Of a stretch of DNA of 61,624 bases, positions 4,482 through 61,531 are shown piece by piece (position 1 is the first letter of the stretch; the number at the start of each line of letters is the position of its first letter). Source of the stretch: Glaciozyma antarctica PI12. Taxonomy: Eukaryota; Basidiomycota; Microbotryomycetes; Kriegeriales; Camptobasidiaceae. Location of the stretch: assembly GCA_002917775.1 (NCBI GenBank), contig KZ627152.1, positions 409,265-470,888 on the forward strand, read 5' to 3'. The notes under the pieces are model-generated. The model was not told the origin of the DNA and did no database searches. It saw only the letters and a program-made list of their open reading frames with translations. The translations under genes and the position numbers were made by a program.

Positions 4482-5654
4482 TCAGTACTGCACTCCCGCT
4501 GCTTCTTTGTCCCACGCATCGTCGAATCCCGCCATCCGTCGCATCCTCCTCACATCCACCACTCCCTCAACCTCGTCGTCCGAAATGCTCGAACAGATCG
4601 CCTGGGCGATCGTGTCGACGTGTATTGGCGGCACGGTTAGGAGAGAGGCGAGGGAGGTGGATGCGGGGGGGAGAGGGAGGCGAGAGGCAGAGGAGGGGAA
4701 GATGTGGGATGCGCGGAGGGGATGAGGGATGCGAGGGATTGGATCCTTGATGAGACGTCCAGTACTGTTGCTGGTAAGGTCGACATCGGGTTGACGTGGG
4801 GGTGGTAGATGAGGCCTGTGGGAGCAAGTCAGACGGGCTTCGATCCTCGCGAGAGAGAGAGGCGCACTGGGTCGAACGAAGACGGGTCGGATACTTCGCT
4901 GGTGCGAGCTCGCGTCCTCTGAGCTGCTGGCTAGTCGATCCAGGATTGCCTGCTCGGCTTCTCGCTTCGTTTCGATGTACCGGGGAGAGATGAAAGGGCG
5001 AAAGATGTCCTCCGCTGAGAGGTAGACGAAAGGAGATGGGGTGTTCGAGGAAGTGGAAGGCGAAGACGCAGCGAAGGCGTCGAAGAGTGACAGAGCTGCA
5101 CTCAAGTCAGCCTACCGCCATCGTAGTCACACAGCTTGGACTCACCAGCGTCGCGATTCATCTGCTCGTAGGTACTTGGACGAGCCGATCGCAAGTGATT
5201 CCCTCGCCCTCCCATCGCCGTCTCTGCAATCCCGCGCAGGACTCCCAACGGATTCACCGATCCGTTACTCTTGTAATCGCCCTCCAAAAGGATTCCAAGA
5301 GTCGAAACGAGAGCAGTCGTGGTCGGGAGGAGTGCGGCGTACGTCAAAGGATCGAAAGAGGATCCAGCGCGCCATTCGACCTGTGAAGCTCGGATCAGCT
5401 GCCGATCCCAACGCAGAGCAGCGTAGGGCGTACGTCCTTGACCCAGGCGGGAGAGTGGCCTTTGGCGTTCGCGAACGGCTTGCCACTGCGGCTGAGGCTG
5501 ACGACCTCCCATCCGCGAGCAACAGCTGCACGGCAGACTGGAGGAGCACGAGCGGATCAGCTTCCTCCCACCGCACCTCACACGACGGAAGCTGCTCACC
5601 TGCCGATCCTACGAATCCGTTCCCTCCCACCACGAGCAACCTCTGAGCCGACAT
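4482..5654 (-). CDS. COQ11: NAD(P)-binding NDUFA9-like oxidoreductase (Coq11 family)
   Basis: Atypical short-chain dehydrogenase of mitochondria, linked in yeast to the coenzyme Q synthome. The N-terminus MSAQRLLVVGGNGFVGSAV carries the Rossmann GxxGxxG motif. Splicing from GGATCGGCAG joins it to CRAAVARGWEVVSLSRSGKP. Further family blocks are AVVSTLGILLEGDYK-type (here ALVSTLGILLEGDYKSNGS), FVYLSAEDIFRPFISPRYIE, TKREAEQAIL and the position-specific RPVFVRPS. There are about three introns. The C-terminal part (4482-4830) is Pro/Ser-rich and less conserved. Start ATG is at 5654; the divergent neighbour starts at 5860. Family is secure, the COQ11 name is by similarity only. Confidence 0.82.
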
Positions 5655-5859
5655 GGACCGGGGAAACGAGCTGAAGGAGAGTTCTGGCGATTGGGATGGA
5701 GGAGAGTGATTGGCGCAAAGCTGGGGCTTGGAGAGGTGCTGTTGGCTGTGCTGTCGAAGACCGAGAGTTGTGGTCGAGGAAGAGCATCGCAGCTCCGAGA
5801 CGAGGAGGCTGTCTTCCTCCCTCCCCCCCTCACAGCCTCTCTCCCAGCTGGACACCAGG

Positions 5860-6702
5860 ATGCCTCTGATACAAGGCTCTCGCACCCTCAACTTGAAGCG
5901 AGGCGGCGTGGCTGGCAGCAACCTGCCCGTGAGCTCCTTCTCACCAGCTCTCCTGACGCGAACCGATCCTGATCCCATCCTCCCACAGACTGGAACGAAC
6001 TACGACGCCCTCCCTGTAAGAAATAAAACCTCCACAGCTCCACCCGAGCCCTCCGCGTAGCTCCTGCTCGAACCTGTGAGGAGTGCAGCTCGGGACAGAG
6101 TCTCACCAGCTCTCGCACTGCTCCATCCACCGCCTCCCCCAGCTCTACTCCACCCCAGCTCTCCCTAAGCAAGCCGTTTCTGACCATCTCCCTTTGCAGC
6201 CCTCCTCGACCTACCGCGGCCCCACCATCGCCGGTTCAAAAGGTCCGCACCCCCCTCTCCGCACCAAGGAGTACCTCTAACCCCCCTCCCAGGCGGCTTC
6301 ATCGGTCTCGTCACAGGTCTCGGTATCCTCCTTCTCATCTCCCTAGTCGCCTTCTTCCTCTTCCGTCGCTGGCGAGCTCGAGGACTACGGAGCGAAGGAG
6401 CGGCGGGGAGGAACCAGCGGGGATGGGCGAGGACGCACGATTATGATGAGGGGGACGATAATGAGGCGTTCGAGATGCCGTCGACTTTTACGCCTTCGAC
6501 GACGGATTTGCAGGGAGGAGGAGGGGGGCAGAAGTGGTTGAATCCTTCGACTATGTCGCTGGATTATCACGAGGGACAGCAGGAATCGCGCGGACGGGAG
6601 GCTGCGGAGGAGCGGTATGAGGGGGATTATTCGCCAGAGGTTCAGCGGGGGAGCGGGTTTGAGAAGGAGAAGGAGGGAGAGGCATCGACGGGACGAGGTT
6701 GA
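5860..6702 (+). CDS. Small single-pass membrane protein, unknown function
   Basis: Four exons give 182 residues: 5860-5928, 5989-6015, 6200-6242 and 6293-6702. The two inner exons are only 27 and 43 nt. The joined reading is TGTNYDALPPSSTYRG, PTIAGSKGGFIGLV, then one transmembrane helix TGLGILLLISLVAFFLFRRW followed by a basic stop-transfer stretch. That predicts a short N-terminal and a ~115-residue C-terminal tail rich in Asp, Glu, Gly and Ser. No signal peptide precedes the helix. Phase agreement at all three junctions and the helix make the model credible. I do not recognise the family. Its stop is 56 bp from the stop of the convergent SRC1-like gene. Confidence 0.65.
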
Positions 6703-39015: not shown

Positions 39016-40868
39016 TCAAGCCCTAATCCTCAGTGCAAACTGATTGAACCACACGCGCGTCGTCAAAGGTGTCGCGTAATCGACCGATGATCCTCCAAAG
39101 AACGTATCTGCGCGCGCAATGTCAGCTCCACTTCGCACGACGTAGGAGGGAAGGACGTACCGATCATCATCCCCTTGAACCCAATCGGTAGCACAGTCGT
39201 CACCGCTCGCTTCGCCAGGACCGGTGTCGGCTCCTTCGAGCCCAAATCGACGACCTTGCGCGCCGCCCTAAAGATAGGCGTCGGCTCGGCCTCCTCGCTC
39301 CTCTTGCGCGCTCCAGCGTTCCCGTAGCTCATAATTCCTCGACGGGTGGTAGTAGGCGTAGGAGGGATGACGATCTTGGTGACGAGCGCGGTCGAGAATC
39401 CGCCGGTGGGGAGGGGGATGGTCGAGGTCACGACGACGGGAGGGTACTGCTGGAATCCACCGTTCGGGATCGTGACGGAGTTGGGAATCGCGTCGTAGTC
39501 GATGAGGTTGATAGGAGGAGGAGCGGTGCCGTTGGTGTTGCCTCCGCTGAGGACGGAGTTGCGGTAGTAGACCGAGGAAGAGGTGAGGACGAGCTTGTTG
39601 TTGATCCTGCAGAGTCGTTTGCTCGTTAGCTTCCTTCAGACTTCGACGTGGTAGCAAGAAGGACGCACCAGACGTTGAAGCCGCCATCGGCAACTCCAGG
39701 CGTGTTCATCCAAACGTCCTGGCGAATGTCGGTCCACTCGCCCGTCTTGAACGTCCAAGCCCCGCGACCAATGACGATCCCGTAGACGTTGTTGCAGTAC
39801 GAGACGGGAAGGATCGTGCAGAGCGCCTCGACCTGCTTTGCGCGAGGAGCGTAGAGGTACATCTGCGAATCGTTCATCAGCGAGATCATCGCAAAGAGAG
39901 GAGAAGTACGCACCTCGCCCTTGCCGGCCGTTCGCCACATCAAGCGCGAGGAGAAGCAGTTCTCGGCTGCTGAACCGCCAGAGCATCCCGTTTTGCCGCC
40001 GTAGAGTCCGGGAAGCTTGCCGCCCTTGACAAAGTTGAATCCGACGGGGAAGAAGATCGAGTAGGCCATGCTAACGTTCGTCGCCGTCGTGAGCGAGACT
40101 GCGAGACGAGAGTGAGCTGCTGAGAAGCGAATCTGAGAGAGGATGCGAGGGACTCACTTGGAGACGAGTAGAAGGCCATTCCTCCCTGCGGCGTGTTGCC
40201 AGGGTTGATGCTTCCTTTCGGGTACACGACCTCGAGTGCACTCCCATTGTTGTACTCCCTCACTCCCTCCGCCCATCCGCCCATGCGGGAACACCCTGCA
40301 CGACGTTCGAGTTGGGCAGCCCCCAAATCCACCTCGTGAAATCCATCGACTGCATGAACGAGGCGGTCGAGCCAAAGGTCGTCTTGAGGGACCAGTACGT
40401 GAGGCCGTTCGTGAGACCGGGAGTGGCGGGAGTGGGTTCTGAAACGGGAGAGCTGCCGGTGGGAGTCGAAGAGCACCCTGGCAGAGCGCCCGCAATCCCG
40501 CAGAGTAGCCCGCTGGCGTCGCTCAGCAGGCCGGGGATCAATCCTCCCGTGTCCGTGGCGGTGGCCCAGCTGGGGAGCGCCGACTGAGTGATCGTCACGA
40601 GCTCCGCGCTACGGCCCTTGCCCTTGCCGATCTGGAGGATAAAATTGCGCTTCTTGAGAGCGCGGGCGGAGAGGGTGGGAGCGGCGTCGGAGGAGGGGGA
40701 GGAGCCGGGGATGAAGTAGGCGGGGGCGAGTGGGGTCCAGGGGATGGCAGAGGAGGACGCGGTAGGAGTGGAGAGGGGGGAAGTGGTTGTTCGGGGGACG
40801 GTGGGGAGGGCCGACGAGGTGCTGGCGAGGACGAGGCAGGCGAGGGAGAGGAGGGAGGAAGAGATCAT
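39016..40868 (-). CDS. Secreted polysaccharide lyase, PL14-like
   Basis: Predicted extracellular lyase of uronic-acid polymers. MISSSLLSLACLVLASTSSA is a signal peptide. A low-complexity Ser/Thr/Pro segment with a KKR site follows. The domain has WSLKTTFGSTASFMQSMDF, YSIFFPVGFNFVKGGKLPGL, YGGKTGCSGGSAAENCFSSR, MYLYAPRAKQ, YGIVIGRGAWTFKTGEWTDI, RQDVWMNTPGVADGGFNVW and, after the last intron, IDTFFGGSSVDYATP, as in PL14 beta-sandwich proteins. Between the VYYRNS strand and the last block there is a Thr/Pro-rich insert. It ends WFNQFALRIRA. Five to six introns. Substrate is unknown; family call is by motif order. Confidence 0.7.
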
Positions 40869-56289: not shown

Positions 56290-58577
56290 ATGTCGGCGGA
56301 AGCTAGCACATTTGCTGTACAGAAGACAGCTACGGGCAGTGCGCCTCGCGTCAGTCAGCGACCGTCGAACCGGTAAGCCCTTATCTCTCCGTTATCGCTG
56401 TGCGAAGTAGCTTACTCTCGAGGCTGGCAGATGTACCGACTGTGCGAGCAAGCGCATCAAGTGCACGAAGGAGATCCCGTGTGGTCCCTGCATCAAGCGA
56501 GACTGTGCAGCGACCTGTCGGCGCGAGTAAGCTCTCCTCGCTCGTTGCGGAACGTATTCTGACGACCCTCAAACAGGACCGTAATCGTTCACGGTCGCCT
56601 GGTTCAAGGAAACGCCGGAGAATCACTTGTGAAGGATCAGCAAGGCTCGACTAGCACACCTTCGGAAAGCGACCCCCCTCTGGTCAGTCCGGACGACGCT
56701 GCTCTCTACGATGCCGATCTTTCCGCCGTGGGGCTCAACGTCCCTGCACAGGTCGGTTCTCCTCCACAAAAACGAGTACCTTTCACCTCTTCTCTTTGCT
56801 GAACACCTTGACTTACACATTCCGCAGATCCGTCTCGCTGAACCCTCCGCCCCTTCTCCCGCCGCCCACTTCATCGACCTCATCCCCTTCCATCGCAGCG
56901 TTCGACTCGTTTCTACCTCTCTCGAGCTTCTAAACATGCTCCATGGCGTCGTCCACGCACCAAGCTACATTCACGAGCACCCCGCCTGGCTAGCTTCTCT
57001 CACGGAAGGCGTCGACAAGGTTCAGTACGAGTCGCTCACGCTGTATTTTGCCATCATCGCTGTGCGTGCTTTTCCGTACCCCCTTTCTTTCGTCCCTCTG
57101 CTGATCCTCCCATTCCGCCAGACTGGCCTGTTCATCATGGACAGTGAAGCAGCGGCCTTCGTAGGCTTCACGGCGGCCGAGATGGACACCCTCCCGTCCG
57201 TCTGGTTCGACGCCGCTCTCAAAGCCCTCGACGCGAGCGACTGGATGTCAAACCACACCTTCGAAGCCGTTCAGTGCGTCTCGATTCTCACGCTAGCCTC
57301 TCACGCATTCGGGTGCGCATTCCTGGTCGTCCTCGTCCTCGCCGGGGATCTCACTGACCTCCGCACGCAGTACCTCTACGCGAATCTTTACGCTTCATGC
57401 GACAGCCATCTTCATCGCTCAAAGCTTGCGACTTCACCTCCTCGGTCCTGAGCCCCCCGACGTAGCGCACCCAGGACTCATTCAGCGCGAGATCGGACGC
57501 CGTCTCTGGATGTTCCTCATCAACCAACAACGGTGCGCCTTTTCTTCGTTCGGCCGCAAAACGTCGAGTTCTCACCTCGCTCTCCAGTCTTTCTCCTTCG
57601 GCGCAGCAGCGCGGAGCCATCTTCACTGGACGCGGTCGAGCGGCTCCTCCAGCGAACGTGGACGACGAAGACCTCATCGAGGGCCTCCCGCTCGTCTCCA
57701 AGCCCTTCACCACCGGGACTCTCGTGACCAAGTCCGTCGCCTCTCGCTCGCTCCTTCCTCTCTCCTCTAACCCATCGCAGCATTCTCGCGAAAGGCCGCA
57801 TCGCAGACATCATGCACGACTTTTTCATTCAATTCGACAACGCCTCCTCCTCTCGACGACAGCAAACCGTAGCCTGGGAGACGGACAAAAAGCTCCTCCA
57901 CCTCCTCGACGAATTCCCCACTCTTCAGCCGACGTCAGCTCCGTACCCCGCGTTCGACCTACGCTGCGGAACGACGTTCGTCCGAGCGACTTGGGAGGGA
58001 CACCTTTGGGCTATCATCATTCCTCATCGGAGGCTGCTCGTTCATCGAGCGTTCCTGTCGAGGTCGTTTGAAGACGCGCAATATCTTCCTTCGAGACTCG
58101 TATGTTCTTCCTTCCTTGCCTATCCTTCGACACTGACGAGGAAAGCAGATCTGCATCGAATGCGCGCGTGCGATCCTCGCAGAGCGTCAAAAACCCATCC
58201 CAGCCCTCTTCGACAAACTCTGGTCCGTCCCCCCTCCCCCTCCCCTCATTTCCTACTCACCTCTCAACTCGTACAGGCACGTCTCAGCGGACCTCATCTC
58301 CGCCGGCGTCATCCTCGCCACCGTCCTCCAGCACACCCTCCCCTCCCCCGAACGCTCTCGCCTCCGCCAGGACGTCCTAGACTGCATCACTTTCCTCCCA
58401 CGCCGGGGTGTCGAGAACGGTATCATCTCGCGCGGTCTCGTCCTGCTACAGCGGATGTTGGACCAGGCGGAGGAGCCGGTGGTTGAGTTTGATCCGTTTT
58501 TGTTTGGCGGAATGACGGGGGATGAAGGGACGTATTCGTATGGGTTTTGGGGGGGAGGGAGGGCAGGAGGGGTATGA
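56290..58577 (+). CDS. Zn2Cys6 fungal transcription factor
   Basis: Binuclear zinc cluster DNA-binding regulator. Start ATG 56290 gives MSAEASTFAVQKTATGSAPR, and after the first intron the cluster CTDCASKRIKCTKEIPCGPC then IKRDCAATC. The rest is a fungal-specific regulatory domain of helices: AAHFIDLIPFHRSVRLVSTS, TGLFIMDSEAAAFVGFTAAE, FEAVQCVSILTLASHAFG, REIGRRLWMFLINQQ, RIADIMHDFFIQFDN, FEDAQYLPSRLICIECARAI. About nine introns. Near the end a run of seven G (about 58,544-58,550) makes the last residues doubtful: one frame stops at 58577, another gives EGYDPLDPGLFSW to 58608. Convergent with the biuret/allophanate gene. Confidence 0.88.
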
Positions 58578-58838
58578 CCCGCTGGATCCGGGGTTGTTCT
58601 CGTGGTGAGGGGAGAATGTGATTTGTTGTTGGCTCGTTCGATATCGCGAGCAGCGCTCTCTAGTCGTTCGAGTACAAGCTTTCGCTTTCGTTCTACCTGT
58701 GGCAACGCCACCCACGCCGAACACTCCCTCAAGGACTTTTTCGCCTTCGCAAGCCGCTCGCTGTTCCACCTTCGCAAGCTGCCTCTCTCTCTCTGTAACA
58801 AAGTCGTCTATCGCCAATGCAAATGCAAGCCAGCATTA

Positions 58839-61531
58839 TCAACCCATCTCCTTTCTCGCTCCAGGCGCCTGGTCCAAATCCCTCTCAAAGCGCTCCGCAA
58901 TCTCCAACACCAGTCCATCCGTAAAGCTCTGTCCGAGGATCGTGATCGCGAACGGCATGCCATTCTTCGTGAAGCCGGCGGGAATGCTGACGCCGGTCAT
59001 GTCGAGGATATTGGCGTAGTGGGTGAACTGGAAGTCGAGAGAGGAATCAGCGAGGGGAGCGAGCGAGCTGCCGAGGGACGCACTTTGCCGAGCTTGTGGT
59101 TGAGCTTGATAGGATCTGCGAGGTATTCCTTCTTCGTAGGATGGAATGGAACCGTCGGAACGACAAGAACCTGCGAGAGTCATCAGCGACGTCCTCGCGG
59201 ACCGAACGAGCTAAACACGCACCTGGAATCCCCTCGCAAACTCCTTTGTCGCCAACCGCTGACTGGCCATCTGCATCCTCAAGTCCTCCCAAGCGTCCGC
59301 AGCCGTGAAAGATGTTGCTGCTGCGTCGTAAATACTCCGGATCTCAGACAGCAGCGCGTCCTCCTCGCCTTTCGCAGCCGCAGGATGCTGATCGTACCAC
59401 CCCTTGACGCCCGAGACGCGTTCGGCGACGAATGAGCCCTCATATAGAAGTCGACCCGCTTCTTCGAAGACGGTGTAGTCCGTGCCGGAGAAGAGCTTGC
59501 CGCCGAGCTTCTGGAGTCGAGCAACGGCGGAGTCGAAAAGGGTGTTGAACTCGTCGCTGACAAGCTTGCGAGACTCGGTGTCGGGTCCTACGAAGGTCAA
59601 AAAGATCGTCAGCAGCTTCCAAAACGATACAACACGAACACGCACCAGGAACGGCGAACGTAAAGTCCTCCGCAGGCTGAAGGATCGCACGAGGTGCAAG
59701 AGCCCACGGCGGCCTCGCAACCTTCGCGAACGGCTCACTCTCGTCGATCCCGTACAGTGCGTTCCAAATGCGCCTACTATCGGAGATGTTGAGCGTCTCG
59801 ATCGCGATGCAGTCGAGGCTGAGGCAGCAGGGAATGACCCCGGCGGTGGGGATCGTTCCACGCGTGGGCTTGAAGCCGATGATGGAGTTGAATGCGGCAG
59901 GTACGCGGCCAGAGCCCTATGAGGGAGATTAGCGGAGCAGATCGGGGGAGGAGGAGGACGTACGGCGGTGTCGGTGGCGAGAGAGAAGGAGACTTGGTGC
60001 GAGGCGACTGAGACGCAGGAGCCGGAAGAGGAGCCGCCTGAGACGTGTTCCTTCGAGAAAACTGAGGCAGGTTGGCCATAAGGAGAGCGCATTCCGACGA
60101 GGCCGGTGGCGAGTTGATCTGCAGGGAGATGAAGTGAGCTTCGCACGAAATAGCGAAAAAGCGAAACGCCGCACCGAGGTTGACTTTGCCGATCACCAGC
60201 GCACCGTTATCCACTAACCTTGCGACCGAGACGGCGTCGACCTCGGGTACGAAAGAAAAAGCAGGGCAAGCCCCCGTCGTCGGCACGTTCTTGCAGTCGA
60301 TCGAGTCCTTGACGGAGAAGGGGACTCCGAAGAGGGCAGGTCGCTTCGTTGGGTCGGGAAACTTGGCCAGGAGCTGGCGAGCTGCTTCGAGGACTTCCGC
60401 CTTAGGAAAGAGGTGGAGCCAGACGGCGGGATCGGAGATGGGAAGGGCGATCCGTTGATAGACTTCTTCGATGACTGCGAGGGAGTCAGTAAGCAGTTCC
60501 GAAATGTCGCGCGAGGTGCTAACCTGCTTCAGGAGTCAGAACTCCAGCCGAATAGCACGTCGCGAGAGTCTCAATATCGAGGCTGCCATCCCAGGAAGCG
60601 AAGGAGCGGCGAGTGGCGGTGATGGCGGAGAGGGAGGGGAGAAGAGCCGCAGAATTCGAGACAAAGCCAAATAGCCCGCTGGCGTAGCAAGCCATTTCGA
60701 TGCTCGCTGCGACGAGGGACGACGCATACCCTGCCGTCATATCGGAGACGAGGCAGCAGTCGAAGCCGCGATCGTTCGCTTCGCGCAACGTGGTTGAGAC
60801 GCAGCATTCCGTGGTGACTCCAGCGATGAAGAGGGACGAGATCTGACGATTAACGAGGAGCTGGTGAAGCTCGGTGTTGTAGAAAGCGCCTGTGATGGAA
60901 TGCTCAGCAGAAGTCCGGCTCATCCAGAGAGCGACCTCACCCTTGCCTGGCTTGTCGATCACGATTTCGCCTTCGGCAGGCTGCATCTCAGGGACGATAT
61001 CGTGCAGGCTGTGGAAAATGTCCGAGTCAGAGGGCCTTGCCAGTGACTGAGAGGTTCCAAAAAGGACCTTACGCTTCGCCCTGCACCAACAAGCGGTCTC
61101 CACCAGGTCCAGTATCGCCAATCGTTCGAGACGGACCGTTGGGAGCCTTCCCTTGACGAAGCAGCTTGGGCGTAGGGCAGTCGGAGAGCGAAGGCGGGTG
61201 GCCTTCGCGCGTGTGGATGACCTGAAGACCGGCGGCACGCGCTGCAGAAAGGACTGCGACGACTCGACGTCAGTGTGGTCGGGAGCTTCTCCCAGTCGAA
61301 ATGAGCGCACGTTGCTTCGATACGGGCAGGATGCGGCGGAGCTCTGCCAGATTGCCGCCTTGCACTTCGCCGAAGCTGGGAACGGGAGGGATCAGTCCGA
61401 ATCTCCCACCTCGTTGGATGCCCCAAGGCCACGCACCCTCCGTCCATCATAAAGTCCCCCTGGAAGTCGATCAGCGCAGCTTTCGCTGGGTCGAAGCTGA
61501 AGGCGTACGGCTTGGCTGGAATGCTCTGCAT
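58839..61531 (-). CDS. Fused isochorismatase-type (biuret) hydrolase and allophanate hydrolase
   Basis: One gene, two enzymes, about 690 residues. The N-terminal ~240 residues are an isochorismatase-like cysteine hydrolase: [20 protein letters not shown] (Asp22), [54 protein letters not shown] (Lys) and [20 protein letters not shown] (nucleophile Cys). This closely follows biuret hydrolase. Then [32 protein letters not shown] and an amidase: [20 protein letters not shown] (Lys), [20 protein letters not shown] (Ser-Ser), [40 protein letters not shown], the allophanate hydrolase pattern. No carboxylase or AtzF C-terminal domain follows. About ten introns; every junction is in phase. ATG 61531; the upstream frame begins with non-ATG TTG. 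Biuret as substrate is an inference from similarity. Confidence 0.85.

Follow-up and report, generated by a model that had tools for sequence, protein, structure and literature searches.

A fungal gene that appears to join an isochorismatase-like hydrolase to an allophanate hydrolase in one polypeptide

The window analyzed here is a 61,624-nucleotide stretch of contig KZ627152.1 from Glaciozyma antarctica PI12. Near its end, at positions 58839 to 61531 of the minus strand, lies a gene that appears to encode one two-domain protein, an isochorismatase-like hydrolase (IHL) domain joined to an amidase of the allophanate hydrolase (AH) type. As judged from its conserved residues, the protein is, with reasonable probability, a bifunctional nitrogen-scavenging fungal enzyme composed of a cysteine amidohydrolase of the TrtA/BiuH group and an allophanate hydrolase, and it probably releases ammonia from urea-like compounds. 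This reading is favored because an intact frame of 716 codons carries both active sites and because the same activities occur as neighboring genes. The gene model, built from sequence and homology, runs from an ATG start codon at 61531 to a stop codon whose last base is 58839, and contains 10 introns of 47 to 64 nucleotides, all of the form GT...AG, and no internal stop codons. Its features, all on the minus strand, are as follows.

58839..61531, minus: whole fusion gene, ATG to stop, 11 exons, 716 amino acids (splice model and Pfam)
61437..61531, minus: exon 1, start codon and IHL strand with Asp22, Gln24 and Phe27 (splice model, alignments)
61311..61375, minus: exon 2, IHL, with Phe33 and Gly39 (splice model, alignment)
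61073..61262, minus: exon 3, IHL, HTREGH with Glu73 (splice model, alignment)
60941..61008, minus: exon 4, IHL, Lys136 and Lys139 of DKPGKG (splice model, alignment)
60524..60889, minus: exon 5, Cys169, Ala209 (binding-Gln site), linker and AH residues 243–261 (splice model, alignments)
60475..60523, minus: intron 5 at the domain junction, 49 nucleotides, phase 1, GTTAGC...TACTGAC...CTCGCAG (splice model)
60175..60474, minus: exon 6, AH, Lys317 of the Ser-cisSer-Lys triad (splice model, alignment)
59964..60118, minus: exon 7, AH, SGGSSSGS with cis-Ser391 (splice model, alignment)
59646..59916, minus: exon 8, AH, nucleophile Ser415 of AGSGR, and LSLDC (splice model, alignment)
59223..59587, minus: exon 9, AH, Tyr552 and Arg560 of YEGSFVAER (splice model, alignment)
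59084..59170, minus: exon 10, AH (splice model)
58839..59027, minus: exon 11, end of the amidase domain and stop codon, with no AH_C domain after it (splice model, Pfam)

Pfam recognizes two domains in the 716-residue protein, Isochorismatase (residues 20–206, 106 bits, E = 2.3e-30) and Amidase (residues 262–695, 231 bits, E = 4.9e-68), and no further domain; both matches are far above chance level. The fusion does not depend on the inferred intron at the domain junction, because exon 5 forms a stop-free single frame from before Cys169 through residue 261, residues 243 onward align with the N terminus of AH models and sequences, and no Met intervenes. Met is in fact absent between residues 205 and 371, which leaves no second ATG from which translation could begin near the AH N terminus, and read-through of intron 5 runs into a stop codon. 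An arrangement of two separate genes, or an artifact of the gene model, could be argued from the inferred intron that the junction crosses and from a model that rests on sequence. Such an explanation is most improbable, given that the IHL nucleophile and AH residues 243–261 share the frame of exon 5 with no stop between the domains inside that exon, and that residues 206 to 370 contain no Met. The first-pass annotation of this DNA had likewise described one fused gene, with a junction at about 60,520. Both points hold in the splice model, in which the 11-exon frame is intact, exon 5 alone holds parts of both domains, and the junction intron spans 60523 to 60475. The sequence strings it had quoted are all present: those in exons 3 and 5, SGGSSSGS in exon 7, and LSLDCIAI in exon 8 can each be read directly. 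The string DKPGKGAF arises only by joining across intron 4.

The amidase domain very probably represents an allophanate hydrolase. Each of its five best solved-structure matches is an allophanate hydrolase or urea amidolyase (4gyr, 4cp8, and 4iss at the top), and its best NCBIfam scores are to NF006043 (PRK08186 allophanate hydrolase, 458 bits) and TIGR02713 (432 bits), with GatA (175 bits) and the best AtzE model (145 bits) next. Lys317, Ser391, Ser415, Tyr552, and Arg560 are identical in all 30 of the other AHs aligned, 27 from the tree set and three plasmid-borne. Together, these scores, structure matches, and active-site identities bear out the assignment in the first-pass annotation. Lys317 and Ser391 occupy what we take to be the Lys and cis-Ser positions of the AH triad, and Tyr552 and Arg560 those of AtzF Y320 and R328, a pocket pair that is presumably important in AHs. 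The nucleophile of AtzF is Ser189 (PMC6219798).

The full amidase domain aligns with those of AtzF/TrzF and the AH part of Dur1,2 (4CP8, 4GYR, 4ISS, 5I8I), with the triad and the Tyr/Arg pair identical. The fungal protein differs from these enzymes in having neither an AH_C domain nor a urea carboxylase and in being fused to an IHL domain instead. Pfam finds no AH_C domain (PF21986) in the fusion protein, and tblastn finds no credible copy elsewhere in the window, its matches there being weak and at chance level (best E = 0.019). In the urea amidolyase of K. lactis, the N and C domains of the AH perform sequential steps (PMC5770610). AtzF without its C-terminal domain equals the full protein in activity on 50 mM biuret, and the AtzF amidase domain itself frees ammonia from 50 mM biuret (PMC3944691). 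The first-pass annotation goes too far in stating that most fungi fuse AH to urea carboxylase; a survey of 64 fungal species placed urea amidolyase only in Sordariomycetes and Saccharomycetes (PMC3073912).

The solved structures that best match the IHL domain are TrtA (6XIX, 198 bits) and, at 168 bits each, BiuH (6AZO) and RhdBiuH (6XJM). The domain was compared with the best 80 loci of at least 587 confirmed relatives, one of these loci being archaeal, and all 103 IHL copies in them were taken. These copies comprise 80 TrtA-type and 23 BiuH-type proteins, sorted by the presence of Asp at position 167, which makes any comparison at that position circular. At 11 positions (D22, Q24, F27, E73, K136, K139, F142, T145, G163, T165, and C169), the fungal residue agrees with all 103 relatives, and at T173, the twelfth catalytic or core position, it agrees with 100 of the 103. 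The catalytic triad of BiuH, Asp36-Lys142-Cys175, is preserved as D22, K136, and C169, and the catalytic Asp, Lys, and Cys are shared with TrtA of Herbaspirillum sp. BH-1 as well.

Where the two types differ, the fungal domain carries a TrtA-type residue or one of its own, never a BiuH-only residue. F33 is TrtA-type (79 of 80 TrtA-type rows; Tyr in all 23 BiuH-type rows), as are Y194 (74 of 80; Thr in all 23) and E167 (74 of 80; Asp in all 23, this being the sorting position). A141 is the majority TrtA residue (68 of 80), yet is found in seven of the 23 BiuH-type rows too. These residues keep the types of TrtA F35, Y187, E160, and A134, respectively. BiuH of Rhizobium leguminosarum 3841 belongs to the same family, has the same triad, and makes the product that AH uses as substrate, but the residue types of its Q215, Y47, Y53, D173, and V218 are missing from the fungal domain. 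Within the TrtA-type set, six proteins from Bacillota, Mycoplasmatota, and Spirochaetota (L039, L053, L061, L066, L068, and L076) have His at the TrtA Glu160 site and cluster separately in the trees.

Several observations weigh against the proposed pair of activities. Both NCBIfam AH cut-offs, 487 and 511 bits, are missed by the scores of 458 and 432 bits; the two models have lengths of 600 and 563 positions, and the fungal match ends at 453 and 416 because the protein stops with the amidase domain and the C-terminal part is absent. For the first domain, the NCBIfam BiuH model NF050097 is the best curated family, yet the score of 204 bits lies below its cut-off of 370 bits. Five residues of this domain are unlike those of all 103 relatives. 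Ala209 replaces the binding Gln, which is Gln in every one of them; G39 stands where they have Asn or Tyr, with a small insertion nearby that makes the alignment less sure; C168 stands in place of Val or Ile; Y208, beside the Gln site, in place of Ala, Gln, Glu, or Met; and L212 in place of Ile or Val. A209, G39 (again less surely), and L212 are the equivalents of TrtA Q202, N41, and I205, which are Q, N, and I in all 80 TrtA-type rows, and the fungal domain further differs from TrtA in being AH-fused and fungal. With these five departures, the first domain might be poorly active or might make a product that the AH domain cannot use. In addition, the placement of both domains in trees is unsure because each sits on a long branch (2.06 and 1.65).

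The replaced Gln bears on the choice of substrate. In BiuH, Q215 is supplied by the neighboring subunit and holds the uncut end of biuret (PMC5806882), and the Q215A substitution removes more than 90% of the activity (PMC7948467). In TrtA, the position of Q202, with N41 and I205 around it, has been proposed to set the preference for triuret versus biuret, and less than 10% of the triuret activity is left in the Q202E and N41Y variants (PMC7948467). Because the catalytic residues are conserved and this Gln is Ala209, the machinery for cutting a terminal carbamoyl group appears to be kept and recognition of the other end of the substrate to be changed. Tyr208 is a candidate for the residue that fills the space left by the Gln. 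F33, E167, and Y194, unchanged from TrtA, speak against a wholly new pocket. By these residues, the first domain departs from a typical biuret hydrolase, and neither biuret nor triuret can be assumed to be its substrate; with its distal pocket probably altered, the ureide that it prefers, although like triuret or biuret, may be neither of those two.

The biuret specificity that the first-pass annotation had given the first domain is accordingly hard to sustain: TrtA is the nearest structure, the BiuH model score is 204 of the 370 bits demanded, the type-separating residues are of the TrtA type or peculiar to this domain, and the binding Gln has become Ala209. It is unlikely that the domain is a genuine biuret hydrolase with changed binding residues and that the protein would thus convert biuret to 3 NH3 and 2 CO2, although BiuH is the top curated family match and biuret would directly yield allophanate, the substrate of the fused partner. 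F33, Y194, and (circularly) E167 are TrtA-type, and Ala stands at the site where the Q215A change costs BiuH most of its activity (PMC7948467). Trees of the IHL domain bear on this alternative from both sides. In a tree of 107 rows, the fungal row falls outside the BiuH clade on a branch of length 2.06, but an approximately unbiased (AU) test does not reject a clade of BiuH plus the fungal row (p = 0.239). In a tree of 49 rows (40 of the 103 locus rows, three Protein Data Bank (PDB) rows, five plasmid rows, and the fungal row), the fungal row lies in a TrtA-side group (support 99/97), with two starred branches between it and BiuH. The AU tests, here and below, were all named after the trees had been seen and are therefore indicative only.

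In the AH tree, the fungal branch has a length of 1.65 to 1.75 and lies weakly near bacterial AHs that have AH_C (70/72, 70/81). Two candidate relationships were tried and rejected. Descent of the fungal AH from the clade of actinobacterial AHs found beside trtA (15 rows, of which 13 are without AH_C and two, L014 and L034, have it by Pfam) gave an AU p value of 0.0304, and kinship with haloarchaeal AH gave 0.0355. Kinship with the AH of K. lactis urea amidolyase is not favored by the tree, nor is it rejected (p = 0.297, or 0.322 with L032). The trees do not name the source of either domain. In these trees, the AH at L032 (6654–8435), which lies beside trtA in a Burkholderiaceae genome, groups with the AH of K. 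lactis urea amidolyase (97/97), which agrees with the origin in proteobacteria that has been published for the urea amidolyase of fungi.

The pairing of IHL and AH is already known in the form of adjacent genes, and covalent fusion was unseen in the prokaryotes sampled. Neighboring IHL and AH genes have been described from bacteria and nitrifiers (PMC7948467; PMC12625717), and an archaeal AtzF with a truncated C terminus has been reported (PMC12625717). Here, AH lies inside the fetched flank at 24 of the 80 IHL loci, a lower bound because contig ends cut some loci, and AH is a separate frame in all 24. Pfam, run on all 24 neighboring AHs, finds 14 without and 10 with AH_C.

Neighboring AH without AH_C: L008, L015, L016, L026, L033, L036, L038, L041, L044, L047, L049, L050, L054, L063
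Neighboring AH with AH_C: L014, L017, L020, L024, L025, L032, L034, L048, L058, L071
Genomes with actinobacterial trtA and AH_C-less AH pairs and no BiuH within the fetched stretch, searched for BiuH: L008, L016, L033, L036, L038, L044, L047, L049, L050, L054, L063

The actinobacterial, rhizobial (trtA-cupin-atzF), and Natronorubrum arrangements place the same two activities side by side as in the fungal protein. Unlike it, they consist of separate genes, and the copies compared, of TrtA type and BiuH type, keep the binding Gln. AH is upstream of IHL at 15 of 17 actinobacterial loci, and at L026 and L041 a BiuH-type gene lies within the same stretch as an AH_C-less AH. On an Agrobacterium plasmid, a trtA-type gene, a cupin gene, and atzF stand in a row, the cupin gene being perhaps trtB. 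The arrangement on a plasmid of Natronorubrum daqingense (L081, 5791–8034) resembles the fungal gene in order and frame, with a BiuH-type gene and, immediately after it and in frame with it, an AH, but the two are split by one stop codon; this AH is without AH_C by Pfam, and the pair adjoins a cytosine permease. An archaeal pair of the fungal order that begins with a BiuH-type gene is a further point in favor of a biuret hydrolase.

A single-piece fusion was not recovered in wider searches. A plasmid match, H122, considered as a candidate (25 of 449 plasmid records were listed), is a pair of adjoining genes separated by a stop. With the 716-residue protein as query, the phyla to which an actinobacterium, a Rhodospirillaceae bacterium, and a Chloroflexi bacterium belong were sampled with 119, 299, and 201 genomes, respectively, and no fusion was found (at most nine, three, and five candidates scored per genome; E cut-offs of 1e-40, 1e-55, and 1e-55), the matches falling in one domain each. 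One scan of viral contigs found no IHL relative. As for published descriptions, no isochorismatase-AH fusion is described in the titles and abstract starts listed from open-licence papers, and the TrtA paper (PMC7948467) uses neither "fused" nor "fusion" in its main text; UniProt or fungal genome annotation may already contain such fusions.

The adjacent bacterial pairs also bear on whether the fungal protein acts on triuret. If the first domain hydrolyzes triuret, or is a generalist for triuret and biuret, it would take triuret to carboxybiuret, which decarboxylates to biuret; this would be hydrolyzed again and passed on to the AH domain. TrtA is the best solved-structure match, the fungal row falls in the TrtA-side group of the 49-row tree, F33, E167, Y194, and A141 are TrtA-type, and trtA is reported from some fungi and phytoplankton (PMC7948467). 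Furthermore, a whole-genome search found BiuH above the cut-off in three of the 11 genomes listed above, and because only these three pass, the pair stands without a recognized BiuH in eight genomes, as assemblies go. Triuret nevertheless remains a somewhat doubtful substrate. TrtA Q202 and N41 are replaced by Ala and, by this alignment, Gly, and TrtA has almost no activity on biuret (PMC7948467), so that the route would reach allophanate only if the enzyme were a generalist.

A third explanation, that some other ureide (guanylurea, a formyl- or acylurea, or a ureido acid) is the substrate of the first domain and that the AH domain has a different or relaxed substrate, is possible, though short of probable. 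It would account for a domain in which 12 catalytic or core positions are kept and five, located at the distal end or close to it, are unlike all 103 relatives. Guanylurea hydrolases, which are relatives of the IHL proteins, show very low biuret activity (PMC9800807), and a rhizobial IHL near an AH is likewise without the Gln, having Phe there, and has the same Cys before the nucleophile. On the other hand, F33, E167, and Y194 near the substrate are unchanged from the TrtA type, and the checked pocket residues of the fused AH are all conserved, which makes it likely that allophanate is formed. A clade uniting the fungal and rhizobial Gln-less IHL rows is also rejected by the AU test (p = 0.0295).

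The rhizobial gene belongs to plasmid L082 of Rhizobium sp. ACO-34A, on which two overlapping IHL genes (5265–5978 and 5971–6612) precede an AH; L083 is similar. Phe at the binding-Gln site and Cys before the nucleophile, as in the fungal domain, are seen in the first of these IHLs. The second has Met at the Cys position (Leu in L083) and is missing the Lys, and may be a pseudo-enzyme partner. Downstream of the AH in L082 are a gene annotated as a cytosine deaminase and then a gamma-glutamyltransferase.

Returning to the bifunctional enzyme as a whole, the conserved residues suggest a two-step chemistry. Cys169, activated by Asp22 and Lys136, would attack the terminal carbamoyl carbon of a ureide, and the first domain would release NH3 and leave an N-carboxylated product, which would be allophanate from biuret or carboxybiuret from triuret. 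If this product is or becomes allophanate, Ser415, together with Lys317 and cis-Ser391, would deaminate it in a pocket in which Tyr552 and Arg560 are predicted to sit. The resulting dicarboxy-imide would then decarboxylate unaided or via a separate protein, AH_C being absent from the polypeptide. A more specific reading, possible though short of probable, is that of an enzyme of new specificity: a TrtA-lineage hydrolase that keeps the catalytic and core residues checked, is changed at five positions at the distal end of the substrate or close to it, and is fused to an AH_C-less AH, the whole mineralizing a ureide other than biuret or triuret.

Channeling of allophanate between the domains, which the first-pass annotation had proposed, is argued against by K. 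lactis urea amidolyase, in which allophanate passes through solvent and the gain from fusion is a higher AH activity (PMC5770610). Channeling would not be needed in the fungal protein; the fusion may simply provide co-expression and a 1:1 ratio of the two activities.

If the bifunctional reading is true, the gene would provide a single-gene fungal route from ureides to ammonia that bypasses urea carboxylase, with fertilizer impurities such as biuret and triuret, or products of purine oxidation, as candidate ureides. It would represent a second kind of AH fusion beside urea amidolyase and would allow a clean comparison, among AH fusions, of channeling of a labile intermediate with merely fixed co-expression. 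The missing Gln makes the choice of substrate in the TrtA/BiuH group directly testable.

The gene nearest to the fusion gene is convergent with it, extending, as judged by eye, from approximately 56290 to 58600 on the plus strand, and contains a Zn2Cys6 motif.

56432..56518, plus: Zn2Cys6 motif CxxCx6Cx5CxxCx8C in the convergent neighbor gene (motif scan)

Pfam made no call on the isolated 38-residue Zn2Cys6 piece. The neighbor is a probable transcription-factor gene on the strength of this motif, and regulation of the fusion gene by it is a matter of speculation. The motif, the short introns, and the other genes of the window all point to a fungal source. Among the 30 pieces of the window scanned with Pfam, there are no other urea or ureide genes. 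The same scan identified polysaccharide lyase 14, asparagine synthase (21.8–23.9 kb), a USP7-type ubiquitin hydrolase (11.4–13.6 kb), PP2A B56 (53.5–54.5 kb), Sec66, COA8, Man1/Src1, PIG-X, and anthranilate synthase; the pieces include 39629–40153 on the minus strand.

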